Source of the DNA: Candidatus Acidulodesulfobacterium acidiphilum
GTDB lineage: Bacteria > SZUA-79 > Acidulodesulfobacterales > Acidulodesulfobacteraceae
Length of the DNA stretch: 56,588 nt
Assembly: GCA_008534395.1 (NCBI GenBank)
Contig: SHMQ01000015.1
Coordinates: 1-56,588 of the forward strand
Direction of reading: 5' to 3'
Shown: piece after piece, positions 16,895 to 45,127 of the stretch
Numbering within the stretch: position 1 is the first letter of the stretch
How the letters are laid out: each line of letters opens with the position of its first letter
Notes under the pieces: model-generated
What the model was told of the DNA's origin: nothing
What the model saw: the letters and a program-made list of their open reading frames with translations, nothing else
Database searches by the model: none
Translations under genes and position numbers: made by a program

Positions 16895-16964
16895 CTGTGT
16901 GGGACTTCTCGGCAATGTTAGTTAAATTTTAAAGGCATTTAAAAAGTCCATTTCATTTAAATTA

Positions 16965-23494: not shown

Positions 23495-23510
23495 ATATGT
23501 TCGCACCTAT
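23490..23510 (+). repeat. 21-bp repeat, copy 2
   Basis: GGTAAATATGTTCGCACCTA(T) matches 21942-21962 with one difference. The TAA at its positions 3-5 is the stop of the GT4 gene. Confidence 0.65.
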
Positions 23511-23644
23511 ATAACATCTATTAATTTTATTCTTTTTCGCTTTATTTTCTTTATGCATTAAATTATAATATTTCATACAAAATCAATAATAAATAATTGC
23601 TTATCAATTGTTTATTGCTGCGTAAAATGAAATCTATAAAATCA

Positions 23645-23690
23645 ATCAATAAATAAATAAATAATAATAATAATAATAATAAAAATAATA
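23645..23690 (+). repeat. AAAT/AAT microsatellite upstream of a GT2 gene
   Basis: A run of AAAT units passes into about eight AAT units and ends roughly 12 bp before the next gene start. Length changes by slippage could alter the distance between upstream promoter elements and the gene, but no promoter is evident right here. Confidence 0.7.
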
Positions 23691-23701
23691 AAACATTATA
23701 C

Positions 23702-24391
23702 ATGAAGCTATCTGTCATTATACCTTGCTACAACGAAGTTAAGACTATTGAAGAAATTATAACGGCCGTCAAAAACTCCCCTTACGAAAATAAAGAAATA
23801 GTAATTGTAGACGACTGCTCTACAGACGGAACGAGGGAACTGCTTAAAAACGGACTTGAAAAACAGGTCGACAAGGTAATTTACCATGAAGTAAATTCCG
23901 GCAAGGGAGCGGCGATCAGGACTGGAATAGCCGAAGGCGATATGGTAATAATTCAGGACGCAGATCTTGAATACGACCCCAAGGAATATCCAAGCTTAGT
24001 CGAGCCCATACTTAAGGGCAAGGCCGACGTAGTTTTCGGTTCTCGCTTTATAACGACGGAAACCCGCAGGATACTTTATTTCTGGCACAGAGTCGGCAAC
24101 GGCATCCTGACCCTGCTTTCCAATATATTTACCAACTTAAACCTGTCGGATATGGAAACCTGCTATAAGGTTTTTAAAAGCGATATAATAAAGAACATAA
24201 AAATCGAAGAAAACCGCTTCGGCTTCGAACCTGAAATAACCGCTAAAATTGCTAAAATAAAAGGCGTACGCATTTACGAAGTCGGTATATCCTATTACGG
24301 CAGAACGTACGACGAAGGCAAAAAAATCGGTTTAAAAGACGGTTTCAGGGCGCTATACTGCATAATAAAATATAACGTTTTCAGGAAATAA
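23702..24391 (+). CDS. GT2-family glycosyltransferase, polyprenyl-phosphate sugar synthase-like (DPM1 type)
   Basis: This 229-residue GT-A enzyme has [30 protein letters not shown], the metal-binding DAD in [11 protein letters not shown] and VFGSRF. Length and motifs fit the soluble DPM1-like subgroup, which transfers a sugar to polyprenyl phosphate at the inner membrane. No transmembrane segments follow the catalytic domain. It would supply lipid-linked donor to GT-C membrane transferases such as those elsewhere in the locus. The specific sugar cannot be read. Confidence 0.83.
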
Positions 24392-24452
24392 TTTATAGAA
24401 ACAAATTTATATAAGAAAATCTACCGTTACAATTTCCTCTTTTTCTAAAAAT

Positions 24453-25385
24453 ATGAAACTATCAGGATTTACATATATAAGAAACGGTTCGTCACTGCAC
24501 TACCCGTTCATAGAATCTATTAAATCTTTGCTGCCTATAGTCGATGAATATGTAGTTTTGGTTTGCGACTCCACTGACGACACAAAAGAACTTATAGAAA
24601 ATATTAGCGACCCTAAGATAAAAATATACGACTCCGATTGGAACGATGCAGAAAAACTGAAAGGTGAAATACATTCCCATAAAACCAATGAGAGTCTTAA
24701 ACATATCACCGGAGATTTCGGATTTTATCTTCAGGGAGACGAACTGATTCACGAAAAAGATTACGACGGTATATTAAAATTCCTTGAAGAAAATAAGGAC
24801 GACGCATCTATAAAAGGTTTTGTTTTTAATTATATGCATTTCTTCGGCGGTTTTTTCAGCTATCCCAAAAAAGAATATATGGAAAAAATATTTTATTACG
24901 ACAAAGAAACGAGGATCATAAGAAACGATAAAACCGTGCTTTCTTCCGGAGACGCAACCGGTTTTGCGGAAATAAGCGGAAAAGCCGTTTCGTTAGAAAA
25001 CGGCAACGCTTTAAAGATGCCTGAAGATATAAAAATATATCACTACGGAAAGGCTTTAAAACCAGAATATAATTATAAAAAAGAACTTAATACCTTAAAT
25101 ATTAACGAATCCAAATTAACAAGAAAACTTAAAACATGGGCTTTTAATTTCAGCCCTAAAGTTGACAAATATATTTTTAACGATTTCAATTTCCTTGAAT
25201 TCGTCGACAAGGAAAATCTGCAATTCCATCCAGAACCTATAAGATATCTTGCCGCTCAACAGGACTGGGATGTAAAAGATTTCATAAATTATAAAAGAAA
25301 ACCGAATGCAATAAGAAGATTTTTTAAAATTACCGTTTACAGGATAATAAACGAAATATATAGCGGAATAAAAAAAATAAAATGA
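24453..25385 (+). CDS. GT2-like glycosyltransferase
   Basis: This 310-residue protein starts KLSGFTYIRNGSSLHYPFIE with VDEYVVLVCDSTDDT and the QGDE acidic motif (FYLQGDELIHE), as in GT2-like transferases of surface-glycan clusters. The C-terminal third is basic and of unclear role. It overlaps the next GT4 gene by 4 bp (ATGA), so the two are translationally coupled. Substrate unknown. Confidence 0.72.
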   Translation: MKLSGFTYIRNGSSLHYPFIESIKSLLPIVDEYVVLVCDSTDDTKELIENISDPKIKIYDSDWNDAEKLKGEIHSHKTNESLKHITGDFGFYLQGDELIHEKDYDGILKFLEENKDDASIKGFVFNYMHFFGGFFSYPKKEYMEKIFYYDKETRIIRNDKTVLSSGDATGFAEISGKAVSLENGNALKMPEDIKIYHYGKALKPEYNYKKELNTLNINESKLTRKLKTWAFNFSPKVDKYIFNDFNFLEFVDKENLQFHPEPIRYLAAQQDWDVKDFINYKRKPNAIRRFFKITVYRIINEIYSGIKKIK

Positions 25386-26587
25386 AAATTTTTTTTGACG
25401 CGCGGCTCATAAATTATGCAGGACTAGGAAGATACGAAAGGGAACTTATAGCCGAGCTTTTAAAATTAAATCCGGATATCACGTTTTATGTTATAGGAGA
25501 AAAAGACAAAATAACGTCTTATATAAACGATTTCAAACTTAATCCTAAAAACTTCGTCGTTATAGACTTAAAAATTAAAAAATATACCTTTAGCGAGCAG
25601 TTTAAACTTATCAATATAATACGCAATATGGAATTAGAAAAAAAAGTTGATATTTTTCTTTTTCCTCATTTCAACGTACCATTTTTATATATTCCAAAAA
25701 ATTCGGCGGTTATAGTCCACGATTTGACATTTTTTCACTTTCCTCGATATTTTGGACGCATAAAAACAATGCTGGCTAAATTAGTTCTTAAAAACGTTCT
25801 GATTAAGGCAAAAAAAATCATTACGGTTTCAAATTTTGTCAAAAATGATATTATAAATATGTTCGGTTCTGAATCAGGTAAGCATAAAAATTCAAAACTT
25901 GACAAAAATATATTGCAGGATAAAATAACCGTCGTATATTCGGGATATTCGCCTAAATTTAAACCTGCTTCCGAAAATAAAATCAAGGAATTTAAAATAA
26001 AAAATAATCTCGACCTTTTTATACTTTATTGCGGCAATCGTAAAAAACATAAGAACATTATAAACCTAATTAAAGCATTCCGTGAAGTAAAAAAAGAATT
26101 TGCGGATTTGAAACTTATTTTAATAGGAAAAAGATTTGAAAAACCGAATAAGCAAGATTTTATCGACGAATTCATAAATAAAAACGGCGTTAAAGACGTA
26201 ATATCGGTAGAATATGCAAGCGACGACGATTTAAATCTTTATTACTCGGCTTCAAGCGCTTTCGTTTTTATATCGCTTAGCGAAGGGTTCGGATTTGCGC
26301 CACTTGAAGCTTTGGCGTCAGGCACAAAATTAATCCTCGCCGACAACAGCGCATTACCGGAAATTTTTGGAAATTCTGCCGTTTACGTTAATCCTTACGA
26401 TATTAACGATATTGCCGGCGCTATAAAAAAAATACTAAAACTATCGCCAAACAACAAAGAAAAGCAGGAGCAGGAAACAGAAGATAAGTACAAATCGGCG
26501 AGAGAAACAATTTTAAACAGTTATCCCAACGATTTATGGGCAAAAAATATCTTGAAAGTATTAAATAATATTAAACCAAATTCATAA
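25382..26587 (+). CDS. GT4-family glycosyltransferase
   Basis: This 401-residue protein has the N-terminal acceptor domain start KIFFDARLINYAGLGRYERE, typical of mannosyl/rhamnosyl-type GT4 enzymes. The C-terminal donor domain has ILYCGNRKKHKNIINLI and SEGFGFAPLEALASGTKLI, followed by DNSALPEIFG. Length is normal for the family. It starts within the stop of the preceding GT2 gene. It probably transfers mannose, rhamnose or a related sugar, but this is inferred from family preference. Confidence 0.87.
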   Translation: MKIFFDARLINYAGLGRYERELIAELLKLNPDITFYVIGEKDKITSYINDFKLNPKNFVVIDLKIKKYTFSEQFKLINIIRNMELEKKVDIFLFPHFNVPFLYIPKNSAVIVHDLTFFHFPRYFGRIKTMLAKLVLKNVLIKAKKIITVSNFVKNDIINMFGSESGKHKNSKLDKNILQDKITVVYSGYSPKFKPASENKIKEFKIKNNLDLFILYCGNRKKHKNIINLIKAFREVKKEFADLKLILIGKRFEKPNKQDFIDEFINKNGVKDVISVEYASDDDLNLYYSASSAFVFISLSEGFGFAPLEALASGTKLILADNSALPEIFGNSAVYVNPYDINDIAGAIKKILKLSPNNKEKQEQETEDKYKSARETILNSYPNDLWAKNILKVLNNIKPNS

Positions 26588-26604
26588 AATTATTACATTA
26601 TACA

Positions 26605-27921
26605 TTGGAATCAAAATTAGAAAAAATAAAATCTATAAGAAAGTCTGAAATTGAAAAGCTTGCCGCCTCGCCTCTTAAAAGAAAGGTAAAGAAAATCGTA
26701 TATCTTTTAAAATACGGCATGCCGTTAGGCAAATTTATTAAATATGCTTTTTCCTACTTATTCATAATACCTATCGCAAAAATAAAAACCAATTTAAAAA
26801 GCAAACCGATTAAAAAGAAATACTTTGAAAACGGAACGAACGATACATGTTATATAGCCGTCAACATCGGCAACGCCGGCATAGGCGACGCTATCGTGGC
26901 GATAAGATTTTTAAGGGATTTTACCAGCTTCGTAACTAAAGGCACGAACGGACATTTAGTCTTCGACGTTTTCTACAGGTCGCCCGACTCCATAAAGTTT
27001 ATTACGGCGGCTCTGCCTAACGTCAGAAGTGTTTTAAACCTGCCCGATTATACGCTTATGCGCAAATTTTACGATATAGACTTAAAATTAAATACTTTTT
27101 TCATTAAAGAAGAAATTAATGATAATGAATTAAGCCGCAAAAAAATATCGGAAAAATTTCCGTCTATTTTAAAAATTACCGAAAACATTAAAACCAACCG
27201 GTCATCTCTCGAAAAATATATTAAAACCCGTCCTTTCAGCGAAGGCATATTATCGGACGCCGTAACTGCTATGGGACTTTCGCGCGCGGTTTACCTTAAT
27301 AATACTGCCGGAATAGCAACCCCTGACGACACGCTTAAACTTAAAATAGATATATATTCGGCAGAAACGATAACGTCAAAATTTAATTTGCAAGGCGTAA
27401 AATTTATCACCGTTCACGACGGATGGGACGAAAACACTAAAACAAAAACCGGCTCGTCGACGAAATCTTATCCGCCCCAAAAATGGCAGGAACTAGTAAG
27501 CTTGCTAAAGCATGAATTCCCCGACTATACGGTCGTTCAGCTCGGCGGCCTCGGCAACGGCTCCGACATTACGGGCATCGACTTAAACTTAAGGGGAAAA
27601 ACGACCCTAAAGGAAGCCGCCTCTCTTCTTGCGGTATCTTCCCTGCATATCGACACAGACTCCGGACTCGTGCACATCGCCGTTTCACTTGGAACTCCAT
27701 GCGCCGTTCTTTACGGTCCAACTAATGCCGACTACTGTTCTTATTCACGGTTTCCAAACTATATAACCGTCACCCAAAGCTTGTGCGGAAACTGCTGGTG
27801 GAGCACCGACGACTGGATGGAAAACTGTCCAAGAGGGCTTAACGCTTCAGAATGCATGAATTCAATTGAACCTATAGATATAATAAAGAGTATAAACGAA
27901 ATACAAATATTAAACAAATGA
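26605..27921 (+). CDS. GT9-family (heptosyltransferase-like) glycosyltransferase
   Basis: This 438-residue protein shows the GT9 layout: an N-terminal Rossmann part (NIGNAGIGDAIVAIRFLRDF) and a C-terminal donor domain with GGLGNGSDI, SSLHIDTDSGLVHIAVSLG and CAVLYGPT. Near the end CGNCWWSTDDWMENCPRG is cysteine-rich. GT9 enzymes include ADP-heptose transferases of the LPS core. The start is a TTG at 26605 with no clear Shine-Dalgarno, so the N-terminus is uncertain. It overlaps the next GT9 gene by 4 bp. Confidence 0.8.
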   Translation: MESKLEKIKSIRKSEIEKLAASPLKRKVKKIVYLLKYGMPLGKFIKYAFSYLFIIPIAKIKTNLKSKPIKKKYFENGTNDTCYIAVNIGNAGIGDAIVAIRFLRDFTSFVTKGTNGHLVFDVFYRSPDSIKFITAALPNVRSVLNLPDYTLMRKFYDIDLKLNTFFIKEEINDNELSRKKISEKFPSILKITENIKTNRSSLEKYIKTRPFSEGILSDAVTAMGLSRAVYLNNTAGIATPDDTLKLKIDIYSAETITSKFNLQGVKFITVHDGWDENTKTKTGSSTKSYPPQKWQELVSLLKHEFPDYTVVQLGGLGNGSDITGIDLNLRGKTTLKEAASLLAVSSLHIDTDSGLVHIAVSLGTPCAVLYGPTNADYCSYSRFPNYITVTQSLCGNCWWSTDDWMENCPRGLNASECMNSIEPIDIIKSINEIQILNK

Positions 27922-29408
27922 TGTTAAGACAAAAAATAAATAAAATAAAAAGGCGCTCATATAAATTATACAACAAGCTGTTTATATACCTGCCGGTCGA
28001 TATACTGATTTATTTTCGCAATCTTTTACGCGGCGTACGCGGCGTTTTTCGTTCAGAACGTTCCACTCCTGCTGAAAATCAAGAAAAGCGTGTCATAATA
28101 TTCCGGCACGACGGCATAGGCGATTACGTACTGTTCAGAAACTTCCTCGAAGTATTAAAAAAAAGCCCCCGATTTGCCGGCTATAAAATAACGCTCCTCG
28201 GCAATGCCGCATGGAAAGACCTTGCGGAATTTTTGGATAAAGACTATATAGACAAATTTATCTGGCTCGACAAAAAAAGTTTTACGGTAGATTTCTTTTA
28301 CAGATACAAAAAATTCAAGGAAATAACCGCCGTTAAATACGACATCCTTATTCATCCTTTCAGCAGGGAATTTTTTAACGCCGATAACGATTTAGCTTTT
28401 CTTATAAAAGCCGACAAGAAAATCGGAAGTATCAGGCTCCCCCGCTTTACAAAACCGTATAAAAATAAAATCCTCGAAAAAATTTATAACGAATTAATCC
28501 CAGACGTTGAAAACATCCGGTTTGAATTTTATAAAAATAAAAATTTCTTTGAAAAACTGCTGTCTGAAACCGCAGCCGAAAAAATAAGCGCCGAAATAAG
28601 TTTAAACAGACCTTTTATAAATCTGCCGGCGCGTCAGGCGGCGACTACTGTCTCTGCCGCTCCTGCCCCTGTCTCCGCCGCCGACTCAGCTCCAACCCCT
28701 GCTCTTTCCGGCATTGCCGATTTAAAATCAAAACTTGGAATTTCCTCTCCTTACGCCGCGTTTTTTATCGGCGCAAGCGTTAAGCACAGAAAATGGTCGC
28801 CCGAATACTTTGCCGAAACCGCCCGCTACCTCCATACAAAATACGGCTTTCACATAGTCTTGTGCGGCGGAAAAAGCGAATTAAACGACGCCGCCGAATT
28901 TAAAAAACATTTTCCGTCCGACCTTGCAGACAACGCCTCGTTTACCGACGCCGTAGGAAAAATATCGCTTATAGAACTGTTCTATATCGTCAAAGACGCC
29001 TCTTTGGTTATCTCCAACGAAACTATGGCGCCGCATATCGCAATGGCGCTTGCAAACGCCGGCACTGTAAATGATGCAAGCCGAACAAACCAAACTGCCT
29101 CCGCAACATCCGCGCCTGACTCTCCCAATATACCGTCCGGCTCTCCGTCTTTAACCTCAGCCCCAGCCCCAAAACCAGCCGTAATCGTAATCTCCACAGG
29201 CGAAGACTCATTTGAACATTTCAGCCCTTATCCAAAAGAAATAACCGGTAATTCCAATTATGCAATAGTTTTTCATCCGCACATAGAACAAAACCCAAAA
29301 GAATATATTGATATTGCAGCGGCATTAGGACGAGGCTACGACGACAGGTTCGATATTTCGGAGATAACCGTTAGAGCGGTTTTGAATAAAATAGACAAAA
29401 TTTTATAA
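27918..29408 (+). CDS. GT9-family glycosyltransferase with Ala/Pro-rich inserts
   Basis: This 496-residue protein has GT9 signatures: IFRHDGIGDYVLFRNFLEVL, FFIGASVKHRKWSPEYFAE, VLCGGKSE and ISNETMAPHIAMALA. Two low-complexity inserts lie at about residues 240-264 (Ala/Pro/Ser-rich) and 383-420 (Ser/Ala/Pro/Asn-rich). The second splits the region just after the donor-binding helix, where other members simply continue. The inserts are notably higher in GC than the surrounding gene. It is coupled to the preceding GT9 gene by an ATGA overlap. It may add heptose or another sugar to a core oligosaccharide. Confidence 0.8.
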   Translation: MMLRQKINKIKRRSYKLYNKLFIYLPVDILIYFRNLLRGVRGVFRSERSTPAENQEKRVIIFRHDGIGDYVLFRNFLEVLKKSPRFAGYKITLLGNAAWKDLAEFLDKDYIDKFIWLDKKSFTVDFFYRYKKFKEITAVKYDILIHPFSREFFNADNDLAFLIKADKKIGSIRLPRFTKPYKNKILEKIYNELIPDVENIRFEFYKNKNFFEKLLSETAAEKISAEISLNRPFINLPARQAATTVSAAPAPVSAADSAPTPALSGIADLKSKLGISSPYAAFFIGASVKHRKWSPEYFAETARYLHTKYGFHIVLCGGKSELNDAAEFKKHFPSDLADNASFTDAVGKISLIELFYIVKDASLVISNETMAPHIAMALANAGTVNDASRTNQTASATSAPDSPNIPSGSPSLTSAPAPKPAVIVISTGEDSFEHFSPYPKEITGNSNYAIVFHPHIEQNPKEYIDIAAALGRGYDDRFDISEITVRAVLNKIDKIL

Positions 29409-29685: not shown

Positions 29686-31122
29686 ATGTTATCAAACAAG
29701 CAAAGATTTATAAAAAATTTGACGTTTTTATTCAGCTCCCGCATTTTGAGCGCGATATTAACTCTTGTGGCTAATATTTACCTTATAGAAAGATTAGGAT
29801 CTTCTATATTCGGCGAATTTGCTTTTGGAGTAACTTTAGTCGGATACTTTATTTCTATTGCAGATACCGGATTATCGCCTTTCGGCGAAACGGCGGTAGC
29901 AAAAAATAAAAGCAATATAGCGGAAATTATAACCAATATTTCTTCTGCAAGGCTTTTGCTCTCATTTATTTCGTTTATAATTATTATTTCCATAGGATTA
30001 ATATTTTTTCAAGACGCTCCCCGCCAAAAAAATATAATTATCGCTTTTTCTTTATTGCCGTTAATATACTCTTTTAACTTCTCATGGGCGTTACGAGGCA
30101 TGGAAAAAAATCACGTTATTTTATTTACTAATTTTATAAACAGCCTATTATTTTTACTTGGAATTTTATTGATAGTAAAAAATTTTAACTGGTATTTAAC
30201 GGCGGTGTTATTATATTTAGCCGGAAATTTAACTGCGGTGCTGATTCAAACCAATTATATAGAAAAAACCGTAAAAAAAATAAAAATTAATTTTGCGTTT
30301 AATGCGGTAAAAAAAACTGTTAAAAATTCCCTGCCTTTTGGAATATTTTCATGGGTCAGCATTTTATATATAAGCTATCCTATAATTTTCCTAAAGATTT
30401 TTAATAATAACAAAAATATAGGTTATTATTATATAACCTACAAAATAATAGGATTTATATTTATGATGCTTAATTTAACCGGCAACGCTTTTATTCCCGT
30501 TATATCGGATGCTGTAAAAGAAAAAGACAAAATAAAAGAATCTAAATTATTAAGCGAGTTTATAAGATTTATTTATACTTTTTCTTTGCCTGCAATTTTT
30601 GGGGGTTATGCAATAAGCAGCGCTTTAATTATAGAATTATTCGGAATAAAATTAATAACAGCCGCCGGTCTTTTAAGAATAATGATATGGTCAATATTGC
30701 CTGTCGGAATAAGTTCAGCGCTTATATCTTATCTTATGGTAAAAAACGCAAGAAAATACCTCGTGAAGTCTGCATCCTTTGCTTCTTTAGGAGGATTTAT
30801 TTTTGCATTTTTCTTTATTAAATATTACGGACTTAAAGGAGCCGCATATTCTTTAATTTTTATAGAACTTTTAATGGCAGGCAGTTTATTATATTTTACT
30901 CATAAAACCGTTAAAATTAAATTTGATACGATAAATTTTATAAAAGTTTTACTGTCGTCATTAATAATGGGATTTATAGTAATAGAATCCCGACAAAAAT
31001 TAATTTTAAGCATAATAATAGGCATGTTCGTTTATGCTATGTTCTCATTAATTTTAAAAACTATCGGCAAAAAAGATATTATGGAAATTAAAAAATTATT
31101 GACCGTTAAAAAAGCTCGGTAA
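29686..31122 (+). CDS. Wzx-like polysaccharide flippase (MOP superfamily)
   Basis: This 478-residue protein has about 12-14 predicted transmembrane helices. The start LSNKQRFIKNLTFLFSSRIL and the central RGMEKNHVILFTNFI pattern are typical of Wzx/RfbX-type O-unit translocases, which flip undecaprenyl-linked oligosaccharides across the inner membrane. It follows a 277-bp AT-rich gap in which I see no feature. Because the locus also has Wzm/Wzt, two export routes seem to be encoded. No convincing Wzy polymerase or Wzz was identified nearby. Confidence 0.82.
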   Translation: MLSNKQRFIKNLTFLFSSRILSAILTLVANIYLIERLGSSIFGEFAFGVTLVGYFISIADTGLSPFGETAVAKNKSNIAEIITNISSARLLLSFISFIIIISIGLIFFQDAPRQKNIIIAFSLLPLIYSFNFSWALRGMEKNHVILFTNFINSLLFLLGILLIVKNFNWYLTAVLLYLAGNLTAVLIQTNYIEKTVKKIKINFAFNAVKKTVKNSLPFGIFSWVSILYISYPIIFLKIFNNNKNIGYYYITYKIIGFIFMMLNLTGNAFIPVISDAVKEKDKIKESKLLSEFIRFIYTFSLPAIFGGYAISSALIIELFGIKLITAAGLLRIMIWSILPVGISSALISYLMVKNARKYLVKSASFASLGGFIFAFFFIKYYGLKGAAYSLIFIELLMAGSLLYFTHKTVKIKFDTINFIKVLLSSLIMGFIVIESRQKLILSIIIGMFVYAMFSLILKTIGKKDIMEIKKLLTVKKAR

Positions 31123-31144: not shown

Positions 31145-32158
<1,014 letters not shown>

Positions 32159-32163: not shown

Positions 32164-33174
32164 TTATCTTAACTTTTTTCTCCAGTAATTTAAAATATCT
32201 TCTATGCTTTTTTTAAGCGGTATTTTTGGCTGCCAGCCGGTATATTCTTTAAGTTTATTACTGCTTCCGTAAATTCTTTCCTGCTCGTTCGGCCTTAACT
32301 TAGCCTCGTCTATTTTTATTTCTGCTTCTATGCCCGTTATTTCAAACATTAAATTTAAAATAGACCGCAAGGAAACTTCGCTTCCGGAACATACGTTAAA
32401 TACATCAAACTTATTATTTATATCATAAACTTTTTCGTTTTCCAATAATAATTTATAAACTTCCGCTACGTCCCTTACGTCTAAAAAATCCCTGGTTACG
32501 TCGATATTGCCGGTAGTAATTACCGGCTTTCTTAATCCAAGCTCTATTTCTATTACCTGCTTTGCAAAAGAAGATACAGCAAAGCTTTCACTCTGGTTCG
32601 GGCCTATGTGGTTAAAAGGCCGTACTATTATAAACCGCATATCCGGTTCCGTAACCGACCACTGATAGCACAGGGCTTCTACGGCAACTTTACTTACGGC
32701 ATAAGGATTTCTGGGCTTAAGAGGATATTCTTCTTTTATCGGAAGAGAGCTTTCATTTACTAGACCGTAAATATCTCCGGAACTAACATAAAGTATTTTG
32801 CCTTTAAAACCTGTTTCTTTTAAAGCACTTAACAGGTTAAAAGTGCCGGTAAAATTTATGTCGAAAGTCTCGAGCGGATTTTTAAAAGACTCAGGAACAA
32901 AACTCTGTGCGGCTAAATGGATAACTGCGTCGAATGCCGGAATACCCGGAGCCGATAAAAACGATTTTAATCTGGCGGCGTCTCTTACGTCTATTACTCC
33001 TTGTTTGTCTTCCAAAGGGATACATACGTGGGGTATGGGTATGGGTATAATAGATTGCGGAGATTTAAGAAATTCTAAAGATTGTATATTTTGCGGCAAG
33101 TTTTGAGAATCGCCAAACGCCCGTATTACATAATAACCTACAAAACCGGAAGCGCCTGTTATTAAAATATTCAT
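32164..33174 (-). CDS. rmd: GDP-6-deoxy-D-mannose reductase-like NAD-dependent epimerase/dehydratase
   Basis: This 336-residue extended SDR has NILITGASGFVGYYVI, HLAAQSFVPESFKNP, SSGDIYG, the catalytic NPYAVSK (Y158, K162) and RPFNHIGPNQSESFAVSSFA, all strong marks of Rmd-type reductases. Rmd turns the Gmd product into GDP-D-rhamnose. The pairing with gmd immediately downstream supports this, although a fucose or talose variant cannot be excluded by eye. An insert after AFGDS (about residues 22-55) contains an Ile-Pro repeat (IIPIPIPHV) encoded by GGGTAT hexamers around 33031-33050. Confidence 0.82.
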   Translation of the reverse strand: MNILITGASGFVGYYVIRAFGDSQNLPQNIQSLEFLKSPQSIIPIPIPHVCIPLEDKQGVIDVRDAARLKSFLSAPGIPAFDAVIHLAAQSFVPESFKNPLETFDINFTGTFNLLSALKETGFKGKILYVSSGDIYGLVNESSLPIKEEYPLKPRNPYAVSKVAVEALCYQWSVTEPDMRFIIVRPFNHIGPNQSESFAVSSFAKQVIEIELGLRKPVITTGNIDVTRDFLDVRDVAEVYKLLLENEKVYDINNKFDVFNVCSGSEVSLRSILNLMFEITGIEAEIKIDEAKLRPNEQERIYGSSNKLKEYTGWQPKIPLKKSIEDILNYWRKKLR

Positions 33175-33341: not shown

Positions 33342-34535
33342 ATGAATAATATACTTATTTTAGGCGGGGACGGATACTTAGGTTGGCCAACCGCAATGTA
33401 TCTCTCAATGAAGAATTGCAAAGTAACCGTGGTTGATAATTATTTGAGAAGGAATTTATGCAATAAATTAGATATATATCCGTTGTATAATATTCCAAAC
33501 CTTATTCATAGGGCAACCTTGTGGCATCAATTAACAGGTTTAGAAATAAAAGTCGTAATAGGAGACCTTCAAAATCCCGAACTTATGAGGTCATTATTTA
33601 ACGGAACAGTTAAATACGACTGGGCGATAACAAATCAATTCTCTGGAATTCCAAGCACCGTCGTTCATTACGCAGAAATGCCATCCGCTCCTTATTCTAT
33701 GATAGATTATAAAACTGCAAATTTTACTATATCAAATAATTTAATTACAACTAATAATTTAATGTGGGCGGTAAAAGATTTTTCTCCTGATACTCATATT
33801 GTAAAACTAGGAACAATGGGTGAATACGGAACTCCAAATATTGACATAGAAGAGGGCTGGTTAGAAATAGAACATAAAGGAAGGAAGGATAAATTTCTAT
33901 ATCCAAGGCAAGCTGGTTCGCTATATCATACTACTAAAATAATGGATACCGATTTACTTTGGTTTGGGGTTAGAATGTGGAATTTAAAAGTAACCGATTT
34001 AATGCAAGGTCCTGTATATGGCTTGGAAATTGAAGATATTAAATTAAAATTAGACGAAAATCTTTATACCATATTTAATTACGATGAAATTTTTGGAACT
34101 GTTATTAACAGGTTTATTGTTCAAGCTATCGTGGGGTATCCACTGACCGTTTATGGTGCAGGAGGACAAACGAGGGGCTATATCAATATTAACGATACAT
34201 TGCAATGTATTTATCTATCTATTAAAAATCCTCCTCAAAATGGCGACCTCAAAATATATAATCAATTTACCGAAACATTTACGGTAAATGAATTGGCTGA
34301 ACGCATTAAATCTATGGCTGATAAATTAGGATATGATTGCAAAATAAATTCGATAAAAAATCCGAGAAAAGAACAAGAAAATCATTATTACAATGTAAAT
34401 CATAAAGGTTTGCTCGACATTGGACTTAAACCGCATTACCTAACAGACGAAGTACTGGAAAGAATGTTTAAGGTCGTCGAAAAATTCAAAGATAATATTA
34501 AAAAAGATATTATTTTCAAAGGGATAAAATGGTAA
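33342..34535 (+). CDS. sqdB: UDP-sulfoquinovose synthase-like enzyme (SqdB/SQD1/Agl3 family)
   Basis: This is a 397-residue extended SDR. NILILGGDGYLGWPTAMYLS, VDNYLRRN, PSAPYSMIDY, LGTMGEYGTPNIDIEEG and YPRQAGSLYHTTK (T158, Y195, K199) match UDP-sulfoquinovose synthase nearly motif for motif. The enzyme joins sulfite to UDP-glucose to give UDP-sulfoquinovose, used for sulfolipid or, via Agl3 in Sulfolobus, for protein glycans. Here it lies in a surface-glycan cluster, divergent from rmd and without a recognisable sulfolipid synthase, so a glycan role is inferred. A paralogue with a different substrate is the main alternative. Confidence 0.82.
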   Translation: MNNILILGGDGYLGWPTAMYLSMKNCKVTVVDNYLRRNLCNKLDIYPLYNIPNLIHRATLWHQLTGLEIKVVIGDLQNPELMRSLFNGTVKYDWAITNQFSGIPSTVVHYAEMPSAPYSMIDYKTANFTISNNLITTNNLMWAVKDFSPDTHIVKLGTMGEYGTPNIDIEEGWLEIEHKGRKDKFLYPRQAGSLYHTTKIMDTDLLWFGVRMWNLKVTDLMQGPVYGLEIEDIKLKLDENLYTIFNYDEIFGTVINRFIVQAIVGYPLTVYGAGGQTRGYININDTLQCIYLSIKNPPQNGDLKIYNQFTETFTVNELAERIKSMADKLGYDCKINSIKNPRKEQENHYYNVNHKGLLDIGLKPHYLTDEVLERMFKVVEKFKDNIKKDIIFKGIKW

Positions 34536-34612: not shown

Positions 34613-35176
34613 ATGAAAGAACCTTTTATAGCACCAATATTAAGACAGATACGAATTAGAAAGGTTTTACCTGTAATACAAAAGGTAAATAATTGTAGAG
34701 TTTTGGATATAGGCTGCGGTTGGAACGCCAAATTTCTAAGTATTATAGAACCTTATATTGATAAAGGTGTAGGAATTGATTTTAAGCGCCTAATATGCAA
34801 ACAGAAAAAATAAAAACCATTCAGACTACTATTATGGATAAATTACCATTTGAGGATTATTCATTTAATGTTGTTACTATGATGGCTGTTTTAGAGCATT
34901 TACAAAACCCTTTGATAATTATCAAAGAAATAGATAGAGTTTTAGAAGTGGGGGCAATTAATTATTACCGTACCAAGTAAAATAAGTAAGCCTGTTTCAG
35001 AGTTTTTAGCTTTTAAAATGCATATTATAAATGAACAAGAAATTAAAGACCATAAAAAATATTATAACAAAAAAGATTTATACGATTTATTTAAGTATAC
35101 TAATTTAAAAATAATTCAACATTATTATTATCAATTAGGATTAAATAATTTCTGTTTATTAATAAAAGAAACATAA
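34613..35176 (+). pseudogene. class I SAM-dependent methyltransferase broken by two frameshifts
   Basis: The first frame (34613 on) encodes RVLDIGCGWNAKFL and GVGIDFK. The second (from about 34795) encodes MDKLPFEDYSFNVVTMMAVLEHL and EIDRVLEVG. The third (from about 34957 to the TAA at 35174-35176) encodes LIITVPSKISKPVSEFLAF and a normal C-terminus. Joined, they give one typical methyltransferase of about 187 residues. The second shift lies at a run of five G, so a sequencing error is possible. The first shift lies near TTTTAAGCGCC. As it stands the gene is inactive. Confidence 0.78.
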
Positions 35177-35206: not shown

Positions 35207-36076
35207 ATGAAGCTTTATAGCATAATAGTTATGATGACTAATACTATATTAAATAATAATGTAATATCAATTGATTATGAAGATTGGTACCATGGATTGA
35301 CTTCAACTAGCAAAAAATTTGAAAATTGGAATGAATTTGAAAAAAGAATAGAATATAGCACGAATCTTTTATTAAACATACTTAAAGCGCATAACATTAC
35401 GGCAACTTTTTTTGTTCTCGGCATATTAGCAAAAGAACGACCGGACTTAATACGCAAAATTAGCGCTGAAGGTCACGAAATTGGAGTGCATACATATCAA
35501 CATTCTTCGGTAAAAAGTTTAACACAAAAAGAATTTGAAAAGGATATTGAAATAACCATTGAAGCTATTAGTTCAGCTTTGCCAAACATAAAACCAAAAG
35601 GTTTTAGGGCGCCTTATTTTTCTATAAATAATAATATGTTATGGTTTTATGAATCACTTGCAAAATATGATTTTAAATATGATTCCAGTGTATTCCCTTT
35701 AAAAACTCCTTTATACGGAATAAAAAATGGTGAAAGATTTTTTTATTCCGTGAACACCAAATACGGAAATATTTTAGAATTTCCTATTTCAACATTTAAA
35801 TTTTACGGATTAAGAATACCGATGGCAGGAGGATTTTATTTTAGATTAATGCCGCTAAACTTAATCAAATATTTTATAAACGAAATTAATAAAAAAGAAA
35901 AACAAAAGGTAATAATGTATTTCCACCCATGGGAATTTGACCCGTCGCATCCTTACCAGCCAAAGTCTTTCAGGGAAAAAATAAGCCATTATTACGGTTT
36001 GAAAAATACAACCCAAAAATTCAACTCTTTTCTTAATGAAATTAAATTTTCGTCGTTCGAAAGTTCTATAATATGA
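35207..36076 (+). CDS. NodB-type polysaccharide deacetylase
   Basis: This 289-residue protein has VISIDYEDWYHG (the catalytic-metal aspartate region), TATFFVLGILAKERPDLI, GHEIGVHTYQHSS with the metal-binding histidines, GFRAPYFSIN and a later YFHPWEFDP. This subfamily with DYEDWY often sits in exopolysaccharide loci. It removes acetyl groups from N-acetylated sugars. Several starts are possible (35207, or internal ATGs at about residues 8-9). The gene overlaps the next one by 4 bp, suggesting the two act together on the same lipid-linked or exported glycan. Confidence 0.85.
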   Translation: MKLYSIIVMMTNTILNNNVISIDYEDWYHGLTSTSKKFENWNEFEKRIEYSTNLLLNILKAHNITATFFVLGILAKERPDLIRKISAEGHEIGVHTYQHSSVKSLTQKEFEKDIEITIEAISSALPNIKPKGFRAPYFSINNNMLWFYESLAKYDFKYDSSVFPLKTPLYGIKNGERFFYSVNTKYGNILEFPISTFKFYGLRIPMAGGFYFRLMPLNLIKYFINEINKKEKQKVIMYFHPWEFDPSHPYQPKSFREKISHYYGLKNTTQKFNSFLNEIKFSSFESSII

Positions 36077-37083
36077 AATTAAATTTCTTCAAAAATTATA
36101 GTAAGAAAACAATCTTAAAATATATATTCGTTGTTACTTTTTGGTTTTTAGTGCTTTTATTAATTTTAAAATTAATAAATTTTAAAATTAATAAACAAAT
36201 ATTCTTAAATATATCTTTGTCTCCTTTAATAATTTCTTTTTGTTTTTATATTTTATTCTCAATTTTTAGAGGAATGAGGATCGCTTATCTGCTTAACTCT
36301 AAAAATTATTTAAAAAGTTATGCTATCTCTGGAATGTATGTATTAAGTTGTGCAATTTTTCCGGGAGGTATAGGCGAAGCAACTTTACCTTTTTATATTA
36401 AAAAATATATGGATATTTCTCTTTCAAAAGGAACAGCATTGTTGCTAACAACAAGAATTTTTGATATATTATTCGTAATAATTTTTTTTATTTATTCTCT
36501 TTTTGCAATCCACTTATCTTATAGCAATTTCCATTTAGTTTTGTCAGGAGTTTTTTTTATAATCCCAATTTTTTTTATTATTTTTTTTATTATTTTTTCA
36601 AATAACTTAAGATTTTTTTTTATAAATAAACTTGGGGAGAAAAAATTAAACAATAAAAATATTTTGGGTCATTTTATAAATAAATTCATCTTGTATATTA
36701 AAAACATTGACAATGAATTAAAAGAAATTAATATAAAAAAAAAAGATATATTAGTTCTTTTTACCTTAATGGGAAGATTAAGCGTTTATGCTTCCTTTTT
36801 CTTTCTATTTAAGTCGCTGAATTTAAACATAACAATAAATCAAGTTATTTTCGTTAGCACCTTTGTTACATTAATGTTAATAATCCCATTTCAAGGATTA
36901 GGTGGATTTGGAAGTTATGAAATATGGGTAACTATGGCACTTATAATTGTAGGCATTAATAAAAACAATGCATTGACAGCAAGCATTCCGACACAATTAT
37001 TATTTTTTATATTCAGTATTTTAGAGGGTATTACAGGATATATTTTATTAATAATTGTAAGCAAACGGCAAAAAAATAAATAA
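36073..37083 (+). CDS. lysylphosphatidylglycerol synthase/AglD-type flippase-like membrane protein (UPF0104)
   Basis: This 336-residue protein has about eight transmembrane segments, with a central GMYVLSCAIFPGGIGEATLPFYI and a later FQGLGGFGSYEIW. Both G-rich re-entrant patterns are typical of the UPF0104/AglD family. Members are linked to GT2 and polyprenol-sugar metabolism, but their exact activity is unclear. It is translationally coupled to the deacetylase gene and converges on a GT2 gene with a 2-bp gap. Confidence 0.75.
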   Translation: MKLNFFKNYSKKTILKYIFVVTFWFLVLLLILKLINFKINKQIFLNISLSPLIISFCFYILFSIFRGMRIAYLLNSKNYLKSYAISGMYVLSCAIFPGGIGEATLPFYIKKYMDISLSKGTALLLTTRIFDILFVIIFFIYSLFAIHLSYSNFHLVLSGVFFIIPIFFIIFFIIFSNNLRFFFINKLGEKKLNNKNILGHFINKFILYIKNIDNELKEINIKKKDILVLFTLMGRLSVYASFFFLFKSLNLNITINQVIFVSTFVTLMLIIPFQGLGGFGSYEIWVTMALIIVGINKNNALTASIPTQLLFFIFSILEGITGYILLIIVSKRQKNK

Positions 37084-37085: not shown

Positions 37086-38141
37086 TTACTGCTTCTTCCC
37101 TCTAATAAATGTTTTTAATATAGTTATAGCAAATTTTAAACCATATATATAATTTCTCCCTTTCTTGCTTTCCCCGCTCAATCTTTGATGAACGGTTATA
37201 GGAACCTCTTTTATAATCAAACCGTTTCTCGCTGCTTCTATCAATAATTCCGGAGAATGATACTGTTCTTCCTTAAATAAAAGTTTATTTAAGCCTTCTG
37301 ATTTAACGGCTCTAAAACCGTTTGAGCAATCTGTTAGCTTTGTAAGCGTAACTATACTCATTATTTTGCTAAAAAGATAAATTCCCATTCTTCTTACAAA
37401 AGGCGTATTTTTTGCACTGCCAAGTACTCGTGAACCTAAAACAAAATCTGCTTCTCTGTTAATAATCGGCCTAATAACATCTTTAATTTCATTAGGGTCA
37501 TGCTGTCCGTCAGCATCCATCGTTACGATAATTTTAGCACCGAATTTAATAGCCATTTTATATCCTAATCTTAACGCAAGACCCCCGCCTCTATTAACAA
37601 TGGTTCTGACGGCTAATGTGTTATTATTTTTTACAATATCGTACGTATTGTCATCCCCGCCGTCAACTACGACTAATACATCAACCTCGATATTATTTAT
37701 TTTTTTTGGAATTTTAGATAATACTGACTCAATATTCTTTTCTTCATTATAAGCCGGAATTATTACAACGATATCCGAAAATTTAAAATCTTTTCCGTAA
37801 ATACTTTCAAATTCATTAATGGCGGTTTGATCAAAAAAAATATTAAATTTATCACTTAACTTAGTTATCTTACCTATAATATAAAAAATAAAAAACCAAC
37901 CGAAAATTGAAGAGACTACTAATAAAGCAATAATTCGATAATTGTTGCTTTTTTTAAAATTCAATAAAAAAGAAAATATTAACGCAAAATTAGGATAAAT
38001 TGAAACAATGAGTAAAAATATTAAAAAAAGATATATTAATATTATATTTGCAGTATTTATTTTCTTTTTTTTAAAAAGAATGAAAACTATAAAACAAGAT
38101 GATAGCGATAAAAATATCCCTAAAATTCTTAGATTGCTCAT
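37086..38141 (-). CDS. GT2 glycosyltransferase with N-terminal DUF2304-like membrane domain
   Basis: This is a 351-residue protein. The first 105 residues carry three transmembrane segments (LRILGIFLSLSSCFIVFILF onward) resembling the small DUF2304 membrane protein that is usually encoded separately beside such GT2 enzymes. The rest is a GT-A domain with VVIIPAYNEEKNIESVL, VLVVVDGGDDNT, the DAD motif in IVTMDADGQHDP and VLGSRVLG, like DPM1-type polyprenyl-phosphate transferases. It probably charges polyprenyl phosphate at the cytoplasmic face. Confidence 0.8.
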   Translation of the reverse strand: MSNLRILGIFLSLSSCFIVFILFKKKKINTANIILIYLFLIFLLIVSIYPNFALIFSFLLNFKKSNNYRIIALLVVSSIFGWFFIFYIIGKITKLSDKFNIFFDQTAINEFESIYGKDFKFSDIVVIIPAYNEEKNIESVLSKIPKKINNIEVDVLVVVDGGDDNTYDIVKNNNTLAVRTIVNRGGGLALRLGYKMAIKFGAKIIVTMDADGQHDPNEIKDVIRPIINREADFVLGSRVLGSAKNTPFVRRMGIYLFSKIMSIVTLTKLTDCSNGFRAVKSEGLNKLLFKEEQYHSPELLIEAARNGLIIKEVPITVHQRLSGESKKGRNYIYGLKFAITILKTFIRGKKQ

Positions 38142-38153: not shown

Positions 38154-39197
38154 TTAATACAAAAATTCATTCAAATTTTCTTTGATATAATTAACATAAA
38201 GTCTGCTAATTTCTTTATAAGAAAGTAATTCAACCGTTTGCGATGTTATTTTGTTGATAATTTTTTCATTTATGATATTATCATATATATAATCTATATT
38301 TGAATATAGCGACCTAAACGCAGGTAATATTACATAAAACTTATCCAATTCAATTGCTCTCTGAGTTTCTTCCTCGCTTAATAATTCTTCATATAATTTT
38401 TCTCCAGCTTTAGAGCCAATAAAAGAAATGGTAACATCTTTTACATTAAAAACAGTGGATAATTCTTCAATCATAACCTTTGCTAAATCAATTATTTTTA
38501 TTGAATTCATTTTTAATATAAATGTTTCTCCACCTTTTGCTATTATTAACGATTGCAAAATTAAATCTACGGCATCTTCTTTTTTCATAACAAATCTTGT
38601 CATATTTTCATCTGTAATAGTAAGATTGCGGCCGTCCTTCAACTGATTCAAAAATATCGGTATAACCGAACCACGTGAACCCAAAACATTCCCAAATCTG
38701 GAGTTGCAAAATATCGTACCGTTATCAACTTGTAAATTATTAGCAGCGGTTACTAGTTTTTCCCCCATTAATTTTGAAGCGCCCATTGCATTTGTAGGGT
38801 TTACCGCTTTGTCGGAACTCATAAAAAGAACTTTTTTAACTTGCGATTTTATAGAGGCTGAAATTACATTTTGAAGACCGACTAAGTTTGTTTGAACAAT
38901 GTCGGTAGGATTGTATTCACCCAATATAACATGCTTTAAGGCAGCTCCATGAAAAACATATTCGCAACCCTGCATAAGAAATTCCAATTTTTCTTTGTCC
39001 CTGATATCGCAAATGAAACAGTGAAGATTTTTTACATTTTTGTATTGCTCCGACAGAAAAAATACTTCTGTCTCATTATTGTCTATTGCTATTATTTTTC
39101 CTATATCAAACTTCATTAAGTGTTTAATGAGTTCCTTTCCGATTGTCCCTGCAGCCCCTGTGATAAATATATTTTTGCCAGTATAAAAATTTTTCAT
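38154..39197 (-). CDS. CapD-like nucleotide-sugar 4,6-dehydratase (UDP-GlcNAc type)
   Basis: This 347-residue soluble SDR has NIFITGAAGTIGKELIKHL, HGAALKHV, SSDKAVNPTNAMGASKLMGE and SRFGNVLGSRGSVIPIF. These are the marks of the CapD/WbpM/FlaA1 group, which makes 4-keto-6-deoxy sugars from UDP-GlcNAc. The usual YxxxK tyrosine position is methionine (AMGASK), as in WbpM-like members, while the preceding DK pair is kept. It lacks the N-terminal membrane part of full-length WbpM. It suggests that an N-acetylated 6-deoxy sugar is also part of the glycan. Confidence 0.83.
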   Translation of the reverse strand: MKNFYTGKNIFITGAAGTIGKELIKHLMKFDIGKIIAIDNNETEVFFLSEQYKNVKNLHCFICDIRDKEKLEFLMQGCEYVFHGAALKHVILGEYNPTDIVQTNLVGLQNVISASIKSQVKKVLFMSSDKAVNPTNAMGASKLMGEKLVTAANNLQVDNGTIFCNSRFGNVLGSRGSVIPIFLNQLKDGRNLTITDENMTRFVMKKEDAVDLILQSLIIAKGGETFILKMNSIKIIDLAKVMIEELSTVFNVKDVTISFIGSKAGEKLYEELLSEEETQRAIELDKFYVILPAFRSLYSNIDYIYDNIINEKIINKITSQTVELLSYKEISRLYVNYIKENLNEFLY

Positions 39198-39246: not shown

Positions 39247-41286
39247 TTAATAATAAAAATAAGGCTCATTATTTGTGCTTGTAAGATGAATATTTCCCCA
39301 GCTCATAATGCTATTAAAATAATTTTGATTGGATATATAATATACTTTCTTTGTATGATATTTATTGTGAACACTTTGAATTATTAGACTATCAATTTTC
39401 TTTTCGTATTTTTTTGAAACATTAATAATTAACATATTATTGTTGTGCTGGTAAAATTCTATAGGCTTATTTAAAATACATAAATATTGTTTTTTATTCA
39501 GATTTAAAAAAATTTCATGTATTTTTTGCATTTTGCATAAAATTTTATATTTGCCATGAGGTAAAAATATTTTATATCTTTTATTGTTATTTAATTGCGA
39601 ATTTAACAATTTTATTTTTTTAGGAAATATATTTTTTCTTATAAAATTATTACCTATCCAAAACCATAATTGATACTTAAAACCTATATTTTTTATTTCC
39701 TTATTTGCAACTATTATCTTTCTTGATGGTATTTTATGTTTAACCAGATATGTCGGAATTTTTGATGAACCGATTACCCATCTGTCTAAACCTATATTTC
39801 CAGCTATAGCATAAATATTTGCAACCGAAAGGAATAAAACAAGCGATGTGAAATAAAATTTGAGTGAAAACTTATTTTTAAATTGAAAAAAAACATAACA
39901 AAGCAAAATTAAAATTATTAAAATTTTTGTAAAAAATGACGGTAAAAGTATTAAATGCATTTTGCTTAACAATGGTACATTTGAAGATTTAAATAAATAT
40001 AAAAATAAATCCCCCGGCGAACCAATTATAGCCTGAGCGGTTATGTATTTATTTATTGAAAAAATTGCAATAAGAACAATTATAAAACTCAATAATACCG
40101 TAATAACTCGCAACGATTTTAAATTCTTATGCTTATTAAATATGTCAAAACCAACCGCTCCTATTAAAAATATTAGCGGCATAATTACAGCGATATGGCG
40201 GCCTAAAAGACGATTTGTGGCGGCGGTATAAACCATTAGTTCCGATTGCTTTGATGCAATGAATAATAATAAAATAAACGGAAAAATAAATATTCCTAAA
40301 AGTTTTTTAGTTTTTTCGAAACTGGACTCTTCATTTTTATCCATTGATAAAAAATTTTTGAAACTCAGCCATAAAACATATAAAAAGAATAAAAATGGAA
40401 TGATACCAGAACTTATAACCATTAACGCAATGTGTTCAAGCGCTAAATAAAATAATAAAATATAGGATACATGCAAGTTAAGAAAATCTTTTGCCTCCCC
40501 GTAATGATAATTAAGCATTCCTGTAACAGAAAAACCAAAGTAATAGCCATTTCTAATTAACCATGATAAGATAATTAAAGCAGAAACTATAAAAATTATC
40601 TTTCTTTCAAATAAACTACTAAATATTTTTTTTACTTTATCTAATATACCATGTTTATTACTCACGATTGAATAAAATAAAACATAAAGCAAATATCCAG
40701 CAAATAAGGATATGCCGGTAGGTTTTGCAAGAAAAGAAAGACCTATAAAAATACCCGAGAGAAAAGCAAAATTCAATTGTTTTTTTGTTTCATATTTGAA
40801 TAAAAAATATATAGAGACAAGGAAGCAAGGAAAATATATATTTTCAGCCAGAATATTAAGCGAATATGAATTGGATGCGGGTAGCAATCCTGTTAATACA
40901 GCTATTAATAATGCGCTTTTTTTATTTAAAAGTTCTTTTGCTAAAAAATATAACGGAAAAATAATAATTGAACTCAAAAAGGCATTGAGTATCTTTATTA
41001 TACCATAACTATAAATCATGTTATGAAATAGAAAAGCAATTGAGATAAAAATAGAATATAAAGGTTCTTTGCCTATCGGATGACCAAAATAATACCCAAG
41101 TTTATGAGCCTTAATTATTGACCTCGCAATTTCCGTAAAAGTAAATTCATCCGGTATAACTTGAATTGTCTTTATAAAAAGTAAGGCTATAATAGCTTTA
41201 ATTATAGAAAATGAGATATAAATTAAAAACAACAAAATCATTTCTTTATTGAATTTATTTTTAATTGACTGCATTATAAACCTCAA
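39247..41286 (-). CDS. GT-C-fold membrane glycosyltransferase (PMT/ArnT-like)
   Basis: This 679-residue protein has about 12 transmembrane segments, followed by a soluble C-terminal part of about 180 residues. The first loop carries VIPDEFTFTEIARSII, with the DE pair where GT-C enzymes keep their catalytic acidic residue, then GHPIGKEPLYSIFISIAF. Such enzymes move sugars from polyprenyl-phosphate donors to acceptors on the periplasmic side. The DPM1-type GT2 gene just upstream could provide the donor. Substrate unknown. Confidence 0.78.
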   Translation of the reverse strand: MRFIMQSIKNKFNKEMILLFLIYISFSIIKAIIALLFIKTIQVIPDEFTFTEIARSIIKAHKLGYYFGHPIGKEPLYSIFISIAFLFHNMIYSYGIIKILNAFLSSIIIFPLYFLAKELLNKKSALLIAVLTGLLPASNSYSLNILAENIYFPCFLVSIYFLFKYETKKQLNFAFLSGIFIGLSFLAKPTGISLFAGYLLYVLFYSIVSNKHGILDKVKKIFSSLFERKIIFIVSALIILSWLIRNGYYFGFSVTGMLNYHYGEAKDFLNLHVSYILLFYLALEHIALMVISSGIIPFLFFLYVLWLSFKNFLSMDKNEESSFEKTKKLLGIFIFPFILLLFIASKQSELMVYTAATNRLLGRHIAVIMPLIFLIGAVGFDIFNKHKNLKSLRVITVLLSFIIVLIAIFSINKYITAQAIIGSPGDLFLYLFKSSNVPLLSKMHLILLPSFFTKILIILILLCYVFFQFKNKFSLKFYFTSLVLFLSVANIYAIAGNIGLDRWVIGSSKIPTYLVKHKIPSRKIIVANKEIKNIGFKYQLWFWIGNNFIRKNIFPKKIKLLNSQLNNNKRYKIFLPHGKYKILCKMQKIHEIFLNLNKKQYLCILNKPIEFYQHNNNMLIINVSKKYEKKIDSLIIQSVHNKYHTKKVYYISNQNYFNSIMSWGNIHLTSTNNEPYFYY

Positions 41287-41403
41287 CTCATATTTATTAT
41301 GTTTCTTAAATCACAGTTAGAAACTTGGAAAACACCCTAAATTATCAACAATAATTCCTACGATGATTTAAGATGTTGTATATTTTCTTTTTTAAAAAGA
41401 AGA

Positions 41404-42147
41404 TTATTCATGAAGTCCAAGCCGTAATTTTAAAACCATAAACATAGCTTCAAAAAAAACCTTTTTGCTCAACTTTGAAATCCCCGCATTTCTTTGACTA
41501 AATACAATAGGAATTTCTTTTATCATAAAGCCCTTTTTAAATATCTTAAATTTAATTTCTATTAAAAAAGAATATCCAATCGAAGATAGCTTATTGATAT
41601 TTATTGATTTAATTGTATCCGTTCTAAAACAATTAAACCCACCTGTCGCATCAGTAAAAGGAAGTCCGCCGATTTTATTAACATAAAAATTTGCGAGTTT
41701 AGAAAGAAGGAGTCTTTTAAAATCCCAGTTGAGTATTCTTATCCCGTTAATATACCTTGAGCCAATCACAAAATCGCAATCCTTTATTTCATTTAGAAAT
41801 AACGGTATCGTATTAAAATCATGGGAAATATCGGCATCCATTGTGATTATACAGTCAAATCCCTTATCTATTGCAAATTTAAAACCTTCGATATATGCAG
41901 TACCTAACCCATTTTTTTGATTTCTATGTAGAACATACACCTTGTCTGGATATTCTTTGGAAAGCGAATCAGCTACAACACCAGTTCCGTCCGGAGAATT
42001 ATCGTCCACTATAAGAATACTAATTTTATTTGGTAGTGAAAATATGTTGTTAACAAGTAATTCAATATTATCTTTTTCGTTATAAGTCGGCAATATAACA
42101 ACTGGTTTAAATATGTCTGGTCTCCTTAACGAGGTGATAACGGTCAT
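41404..42147 (-). CDS. DPM1-type polyprenol monophosphomannose synthase-like GT2
   Basis: This GT-A enzyme of about 247 residues has VVILPTYNEKDNIELLV, ILIVDDNSPDGT, GLGTAYIEGFKFA, the DAD in IITMDADISHD and VIGSRYI. This is the DPM1 pattern almost throughout, and the protein has no membrane helices. The ATG at 42147 is chosen because AAGGAG lies about 8 bp upstream; an earlier ATG at 42177 would overlap the preceding gene. It is the likely donor-maker for the GT-C protein downstream. Confidence 0.87.
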   Translation of the reverse strand: MTVITSLRRPDIFKPVVILPTYNEKDNIELLVNNIFSLPNKISILIVDDNSPDGTGVVADSLSKEYPDKVYVLHRNQKNGLGTAYIEGFKFAIDKGFDCIITMDADISHDFNTIPLFLNEIKDCDFVIGSRYINGIRILNWDFKRLLLSKLANFYVNKIGGLPFTDATGGFNCFRTDTIKSININKLSSIGYSFLIEIKFKIFKKGFMIKEIPIVFSQRNAGISKLSKKVFFEAMFMVLKLRLGLHE

Positions 42148-42148
42148 T

Positions 42149-42898
42149 TCAATTCTCCTTTTTTTTACAAACAGCAAAAAGCGTTAATCCAAATGGATGG
42201 TTTATTAGCTTTTCTATTTTTGAAAATAACGGAACAAGTTTATCATATATTCCGATTTGATTTTCTGAAGCAAAGGATTCCTTTCTTAGAATTTTAAATA
42301 AAAAAAACCAAGCCATAAAACCAACTATATCCATATATAATAAATCAACTATTTCTAAACCATTAAATAATATTTTTTCAGATATATATTTTTTGTTATA
42401 CCTCCTAAAATGTCCAACATTTTTATCTAAATTTGAATATAACAAGTTAAAGGCTGGAACTCTTAAAATAATGTATCCATTTTTCCCAAGGCATTTTTTC
42501 ATATTACCTATAGCTTTTAGGTCGTCTTCGATATGCTCCAAAACATTGAAACATATTACTGTATCGATATCCGCATTATCTCTTTTTATAATTTCCACAA
42601 AACTTTCATCCAAAATATCGCCTTTAACAACCTTTATTTTAGGATTATCATTATACTTCTTTGAAAGTTCCGCAAAACAATTATCATCGATTTCAGTGGC
42701 TATTACTATTTTTTTTTGAAGAAAAAATTCTGTAAATGTCCCTAAACCTGCACCGACCTCTAGTATATTATTTCCGATATATTTATCTACAATAGAAATT
42801 GACCATTTGGCAAAATTAGAAGCATTTTTTATTGAATCAATAGCTTTATTGCAAGTGGCTACATTACTTGAATCATTCTTAAACATTTTTCTCCTCAA
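42149..42898 (-). CDS. class I SAM-dependent methyltransferase
   Basis: This 249-residue protein has motif I ILEVGAGLGTFTEFFL, an acidic loop VIATEIDDN, VICFNVLEHIEDDL and YIILRVPAFNLLYSNLD. It resembles methyltransferases found beside DPM1-type GT2 and YfhO genes in glycan clusters. It lies directly between such genes with gaps below 10 bp, so it is part of one operon. The acceptor could be a sugar or a lipid intermediate, and nothing in the sequence decides. Confidence 0.83.
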   Translation of the reverse strand: MRRKMFKNDSSNVATCNKAIDSIKNASNFAKWSISIVDKYIGNNILEVGAGLGTFTEFFLQKKIVIATEIDDNCFAELSKKYNDNPKIKVVKGDILDESFVEIIKRDNADIDTVICFNVLEHIEDDLKAIGNMKKCLGKNGYIILRVPAFNLLYSNLDKNVGHFRRYNKKYISEKILFNGLEIVDLLYMDIVGFMAWFFLFKILRKESFASENQIGIYDKLVPLFSKIEKLINHPFGLTLFAVCKKKEN

Positions 42899-42905
42899 AT
42901 TAATT

Positions 42906-45053: not shown

Positions 45054-45127
45054 TATTTAAATTTTATAAAAAAATTAATTTATTAGGAAGCGTTAAATAT
45101 TTAAGTAAATTCAATTTTAATAATCCT

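Follow-up and report, generated by a model that had tools for sequence, protein, structure and literature searches.

A proline-type SQD1-family enzyme with a conserved dehydratase partner in a surface-glycan cluster of Candidatus Acidulodesulfobacterium acidiphilum, a probable route to a sulfonated sugar

Plants and cyanobacteria are known to carry sugars of the sulfoquinovose type in their sulfolipids, and a few archaeal glycans contain them as well. What, then, is the role of an SQD1-like gene that lies in a bacterial surface-glycan cluster? Such a gene was found in the window, which is the whole 56,588-nucleotide stretch of contig SHMQ01000015.1 from Candidatus Acidulodesulfobacterium acidiphilum that was analysed. 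The initial annotation had described it as a UDP-sulfoquinovose synthase-like gene and had predicted a sulfonated sugar in the exported glycan.

The open reading frame is complete from ATG to stop, its boundaries are exact, and it encodes 397 aa. Searching the PDB with phmmer identified Arabidopsis SQD1 as the nearest solved relative (1qrr; E = 3.9e-116, 391 bits, residues 1-397), and the next family scored only about 40 bits. A model predicted by AlphaFold from 22 sequences (pLDDT 79, pTM 0.84) retrieved the same structure as the top Foldseek match (E = 2.4e-42), with other SDR families at about 1e-17. Sequence and predicted fold thus bear out the annotation as an SQD1-family enzyme. The NCBIfam model for UDP-sulfoquinovose synthase (NF041015) matched over the full length with 418 bits against a cutoff of 575. 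We dropped this score as an argument against family membership, because a cyanobacterial SqdB (464 bits) fails the cutoff as well, which makes it uninformative here.

The protein shares with Arabidopsis SQD1 and with the SqdB proteins of Sinorhizobium meliloti and cyanobacteria the SDR family, the fold, the TMG...YHxxK pattern and an NAD-type Rossmann site (VDN). Its T/Y/K triad is in place, as had been annotated (T158 in LGTMGEYG; Y195 and K199 in YHTTK), and the [ST]MG...Yx3K fingerprint is intact and invariant across the alignment. A review of nucleotide-sugar dehydratases gives TMG...Yx3K as the fingerprint of SQD1 and Agl3 (PMC8987622). The further claim that the SQD1 signature motifs are kept held for TMG...YxxxK but not for EQRSAP, which reads EMPSAP here. 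In the alignment, H-F-G-E-Q100-R101-S-A-P-Y of SQD1 corresponds to H109-Y-A-E-M113-P114-S-A-P-Y, so that Gln is replaced by Met at 113 in addition to the replacement of Arg by Pro at 114. An insertion of about 13 aa (residues ~90-103) was also seen relative to SQD1.

The arginine of the EQRSAP motif is present in SQD1, S. meliloti SqdB and Okeania SqdB. Agl3 of Sulfolobus acidocaldarius, which belongs to the same family and makes the sulfoquinovose of the S-layer N-glycan, resembles the window protein in serving a glycan rather than a lipid; unlike it, Agl3 keeps the arginine, judged by its mutagenesis primers, and its R101A mutant is inactive (PMC4388408). Proline occupied this position in the nearest 80 of 528 homologous stretches (genome contigs), in 97 of the 107 proteins compared (arginine in the other 10; active-site H, T, Y and K invariant) and in all 90 ingroup proteins of this proline type (P-type). 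Most of the 80 read HYAEQPSAPY, the window protein and those closest to it read HYAEMPSAPY or HFAEMPSAPY, and SQD1 reads HFGEQRSAPY.

In two maximum-likelihood trees, taken without Agl3, the arginine-bearing (R-type) proteins formed one side of a branch (support 100/96, then 93/84). This side held SQD1 and cyanobacterial SqdB, joined in the second tree by S. meliloti SqdB and other plasmid-borne SqdB-like proteins. The second tree also separated the clade of the window protein from the arginine proteins with support of 100/99; the phylogenetic check against SqdB and SQD1 that the initial annotation had suggested therefore places the protein outside their group. Two Okeania genomes hold both forms, an EQR-type SqdB and a P-type protein. 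Proline was also found at the arginine position in deep outgroups, so arginine may be the derived state and proline the ancestral one. We had considered whether sulfite use can be read strictly from this residue, but this was weakened by the outgroups and by one proline protein (L097, with ENP) that passes the curated NF041015 cutoff. Proline at this position thus marks the clade and calls for caution, but does not prove function.

Judged by its sequences and gene neighbourhoods, the P-type clade is widespread in bacteria and lies in surface-sugar gene clusters. We know of no characterised member. Among 22 plasmid records, the best of which was 47% identical, the five bacterial proteins examined were R-type and the haloarchaeal one was P-type. 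The latter, on a Haladaptatus plasmid (L151, 1-8189), and related AQP-type proteins share the proline with the window protein, and the L151 neighbours match types found in the window (a polysaccharide deacetylase, an LPG-synthase-TM gene and a DUF2304 gene). They differ in being only ~33% identical, in having TTTGVYG for TMGEYG and in having no PF02719 partner of the type described below. A small plasmid of Pelagovum pacificum (L152) carries, at 5995-7901, an R-type SqdB-like gene with a phosphoadenylyl-sulfate reductase gene directly after it, and glycosyltransferase genes lie near. A genome from a relative of the host family (G025) carries two P-type genes (L163 and L164), 80% and 75% identical to that of the window, each with its own partner dehydratase.

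The setting beside gmd/rmd, a deacetylase and glycosyltransferases was confirmed, and a flippase is also there (Table 1). The presence of both Gmd and Rmd supports GDP-D-rhamnose synthesis well. The methyltransferase that follows the SQD gene is intact and 188 aa long in two relatives (L009 and L010), but in the window it is broken up into three short ORFs that lie in different frames, which reflects either a true pseudogene or assembly errors. At 45826-49677 (minus strand), a 1283-aa protein contains three separate GT4 (Glycos_transf_1) stretches and is also found in L010.

Table 1. Genes of the surface-glycan cluster in the window, with the basis of each assignment
Feature	Position	Strand	Basis
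Five to six glycosyltransferase genes (GT4, GT2, GT9-like)	22301..29408	+	Profile matches
Wzx-like flippase (PF01943)	29686..31122	+	Profile match
Gmd, GDP-mannose 4,6-dehydratase	31145..32131	-	417 bits vs cutoff 415
Rmd, GDP-6-deoxy-D-mannose reductase	32164..33174	-	Best PDB match 6x3b, 258 bits
P-type SQD1-family SDR, the gene under study, 397 aa	33342..34535	+	phmmer, alignment, tree, predicted fold
Disrupted SAM methyltransferase remnants	34613..35176	+	Counterpart intact after SQD gene in L009, L010
Polysaccharide deacetylase with DUF3473	35207..36076	+	Profile matches
LPG-synthase-TM / flippase-like membrane protein	36073..37083	+	Profile matches
GT2 glycosyltransferase, weak DUF2304 part	37086..38141	-	Profile match
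Partner, soluble PF02719 UDP-GlcNAc 4,6-dehydratase-like SDR (SSDKAV, NAMGASK)	38154..39197	-	Profile and tblastn
PMT_2-like membrane protein, GT2, methyltransferases, YfhO-like protein, triple GT4 protein; same glycan cluster	39247..49677	-	

The most constant companion of the P-type gene is a soluble PF02719 dehydratase. Neighbour-gene clustering followed by tblastn located it near the SQD gene in 72 of the 73 testable loci, which are those with at least 1.3 kb of sequence upstream of that gene, and directly upstream in 52; it was present at the Pseudomonas and Stutzerimonas loci (tblastn). In six more P-type loci, sampled independently, the partner was directly upstream in every case. When 386 genomes were searched for the partner irrespective of the SQD gene, every match above 300 bits lay in a genome with a P-type SQD gene and close to that gene, and the R-type and outgroup loci examined had no such partner. 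The exceptions to the pairing were L074, G091 (L160) and G020. In the window, the partner is encoded on the strand opposite to the SQD gene. A GalE-like epimerase was found in 38 of 80 P-type loci; no epimerase of this kind is encoded in the window.

The closest solved relatives of the partner are UDP-GlcNAc dehydratases. It resembles PglF/WbpM, CapE/FnlA and the Pen-type enzymes in its PF02719 domain and [ST]DK acid/base pair (SSDKAV is invariant among the partner proteins), and PglF and FnlA also in that Met replaces the Tyr of YxxxK. Unlike all of these, it falls under all curated cutoffs (in the window, 281 vs 408 bits for PseB and 230 vs 730 bits for FnlA) and is genetically tied to an SQD1-like enzyme. 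To our knowledge, PF02719 dehydratases play no part in the known sulfoquinovose pathways. An assignment as a standard UDP-sulfoquinovose synthase was therefore not upheld, given this foreign partner, the separate clade and the proline in place of the arginine essential in Agl3.

A link with sulfur metabolism emerged from the relatives. Using E. coli Cys proteins as queries, we found genes for APS kinase, PAPS reductase or CysDN in 12 of 85 P-type loci; those assignments that were tested were confirmed by Pfam and NCBIfam. The APS kinase gene cysC occurred in 10 of the 85 (11 genes), compared with 0.4-0.8 expected by chance for the DNA scanned, an estimate that assumes random gene placement and was computed after the pattern was noticed. 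Two loci, L021 and L082, carried cysDN, and two others, L077 and L043, a PAPS reductase gene. Six loci, drawn from different lineages, have a cys gene that adjoins or overlaps the cassette, and the order varies: cysC-partner-SQD-epimerase (L027), partner-SQD-epimerase-cysC (L052), cysC-partner (L069), cysC-epimerase-partner-SQD (L162), cysD-cysNC-SQD (L082) and PAPS reductase-partner-SQD-epimerase (L077), where the stop codon of the reductase overlaps the start of the partner as ATGA. About 73 of the 85 loci, and the window itself, had no sulfate-activation or PAPS reductase gene nearby, and the independent sample of six loci contained no cys gene, so the sulfur link was not replicated there.

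Because of family membership, the sister clade and the fact that sulfate-activation and sulfite-producing genes were recruited repeatedly, we consider it probable (at roughly 55%) that the gene encodes an SQD1-family variant dedicated to glycan synthesis, whose product is a 6-C-sulfonated nucleotide sugar. The P-type enzyme would act as an NAD-dependent SDR on the C4-C6 part of a UDP-sugar and would share one pathway with the PF02719 partner, which the GalE-like epimerase may join in about half of the relatives. The most likely product would be a 6-deoxy-6-sulfo (C-sulfonated) hexose or hexosamine nucleotide, and the neighbouring glycosyltransferases may place the sulfonated sugar, together with D-rhamnose, in an exported glycan of the cell surface. 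The predicted parts of this scheme are sulfite use, the identity of the sugar, the sequence in which the two enzymes act and the entry of the sugar into the glycan. A clear dsrA gene was found in the host genome (2.09 Mb, 70 contigs), which makes sulfite a normal metabolite there. We also envisaged a more specific two-enzyme route to a new sulfonated amino sugar, which we regard as rather unlikely: the partner would dehydrate UDP-GlcNAc, the SQD-like enzyme would add sulfite at C6 to give UDP-6-deoxy-6-sulfo-GlcNAc, the GalE-like enzyme would make the galacto form, and the sugar would be widespread in the surface glycans that marine, subsurface and sulfur-cycling bacteria make.

The main rival to sulfonation is a non-sulfonating SQD1-like enzyme, an explanation that we hold to be less than an even bet but a serious one. 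Having exchanged Arg for Pro, the protein would no longer handle sulfite and, together with its PF02719 partner, would work as a dehydratase or isomerase that turns a UDP-sugar into a 5,6-unsaturated or deoxy sugar. The exchange throughout the clade and the near-obligate dehydratase partner both fit this explanation, as does the finding that Agl3 without sulfite is already a 5,6-dehydratase (PMC8987622). The cys genes would then serve O-sulfation. Indeed, sulfotransferase-like ORFs were seen in 6 of the 12 cys loci and in 13 of the 73 others (by motif screen, with Pfam confirmation only for L024 and L086), so PAPS at the cys loci may be used for O-sulfation instead. However, five of the six loci in which cys genes abut the SDR cassette (L052, L069, L077, L082 and L162) had no sulfotransferase-like ORF in the examined flanks. 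Moreover, PAPS reductase, as in L077 and L043, yields sulfite and not sulfate esters. Because sulfate-activation or PAPS reductase genes were recruited beside the cassette in several lineages, the sulfonated glycan predicted initially is still plausible.

Could the gene instead be decaying or out of use, carried along as a passenger when the glycan cluster was transferred? It was absent from the congeners examined, which points to horizontal transfer, and the adjacent methyltransferase is broken. Nevertheless, the ORF is open and full-length with all invariant catalytic residues, and an orthologue in another genus is 93% identical, and we consider this explanation improbable. A phage origin was unsupported, as phage records gave no match to the gene. 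That the gene encodes a normal UDP-sulfoquinovose synthase supplying membrane sulfolipid (SQDG) agrees with its family but was rejected as highly improbable on its clade, separate from SqdB, its glycan locus and a host-genome search with S. meliloti SqdD that gave no match (without a positive control), and Okeania retains a normal SqdB beside its P-type gene. The host genome has only one SQD-type gene, and SqdX was not separable there from other GT4 proteins; these searches gave no sign of a sulfolipid pathway, in agreement with the initial view that the gene lies beside glycan genes rather than a sulfolipid synthase.

In the open-access literature, we found nothing on SQD-type genes in bacterial O-antigen, EPS or surface-glycan clusters, and no description of the SQD-type/PF02719 pair or of sulfoquinovosamine; this is weak evidence, as most subscription papers lie outside that scope. 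The P-type proteins form a separate, widely transferred bacterial branch that has a conserved partner and has repeatedly recruited sulfate-activation genes. If their product is a sulfonated sugar, several bacterial phyla would commonly bear sulfonated glycans on their surfaces, and these glycans would represent an unrecognised source of organosulfur. If they do not sulfonate, many glycan-cluster genes annotated as UDP-sulfoquinovose synthase are misnamed.

Two further features of the window lie outside this argument. Two convergent DUF4143/AAA_14 ATPase genes border the glycan cluster (15657-18389). Farther upstream (7368-8543, minus strand), a Protoglobin domain is fused to an HD_5 (HD-GYP-like) domain in what may be a gas-sensing signalling protein.
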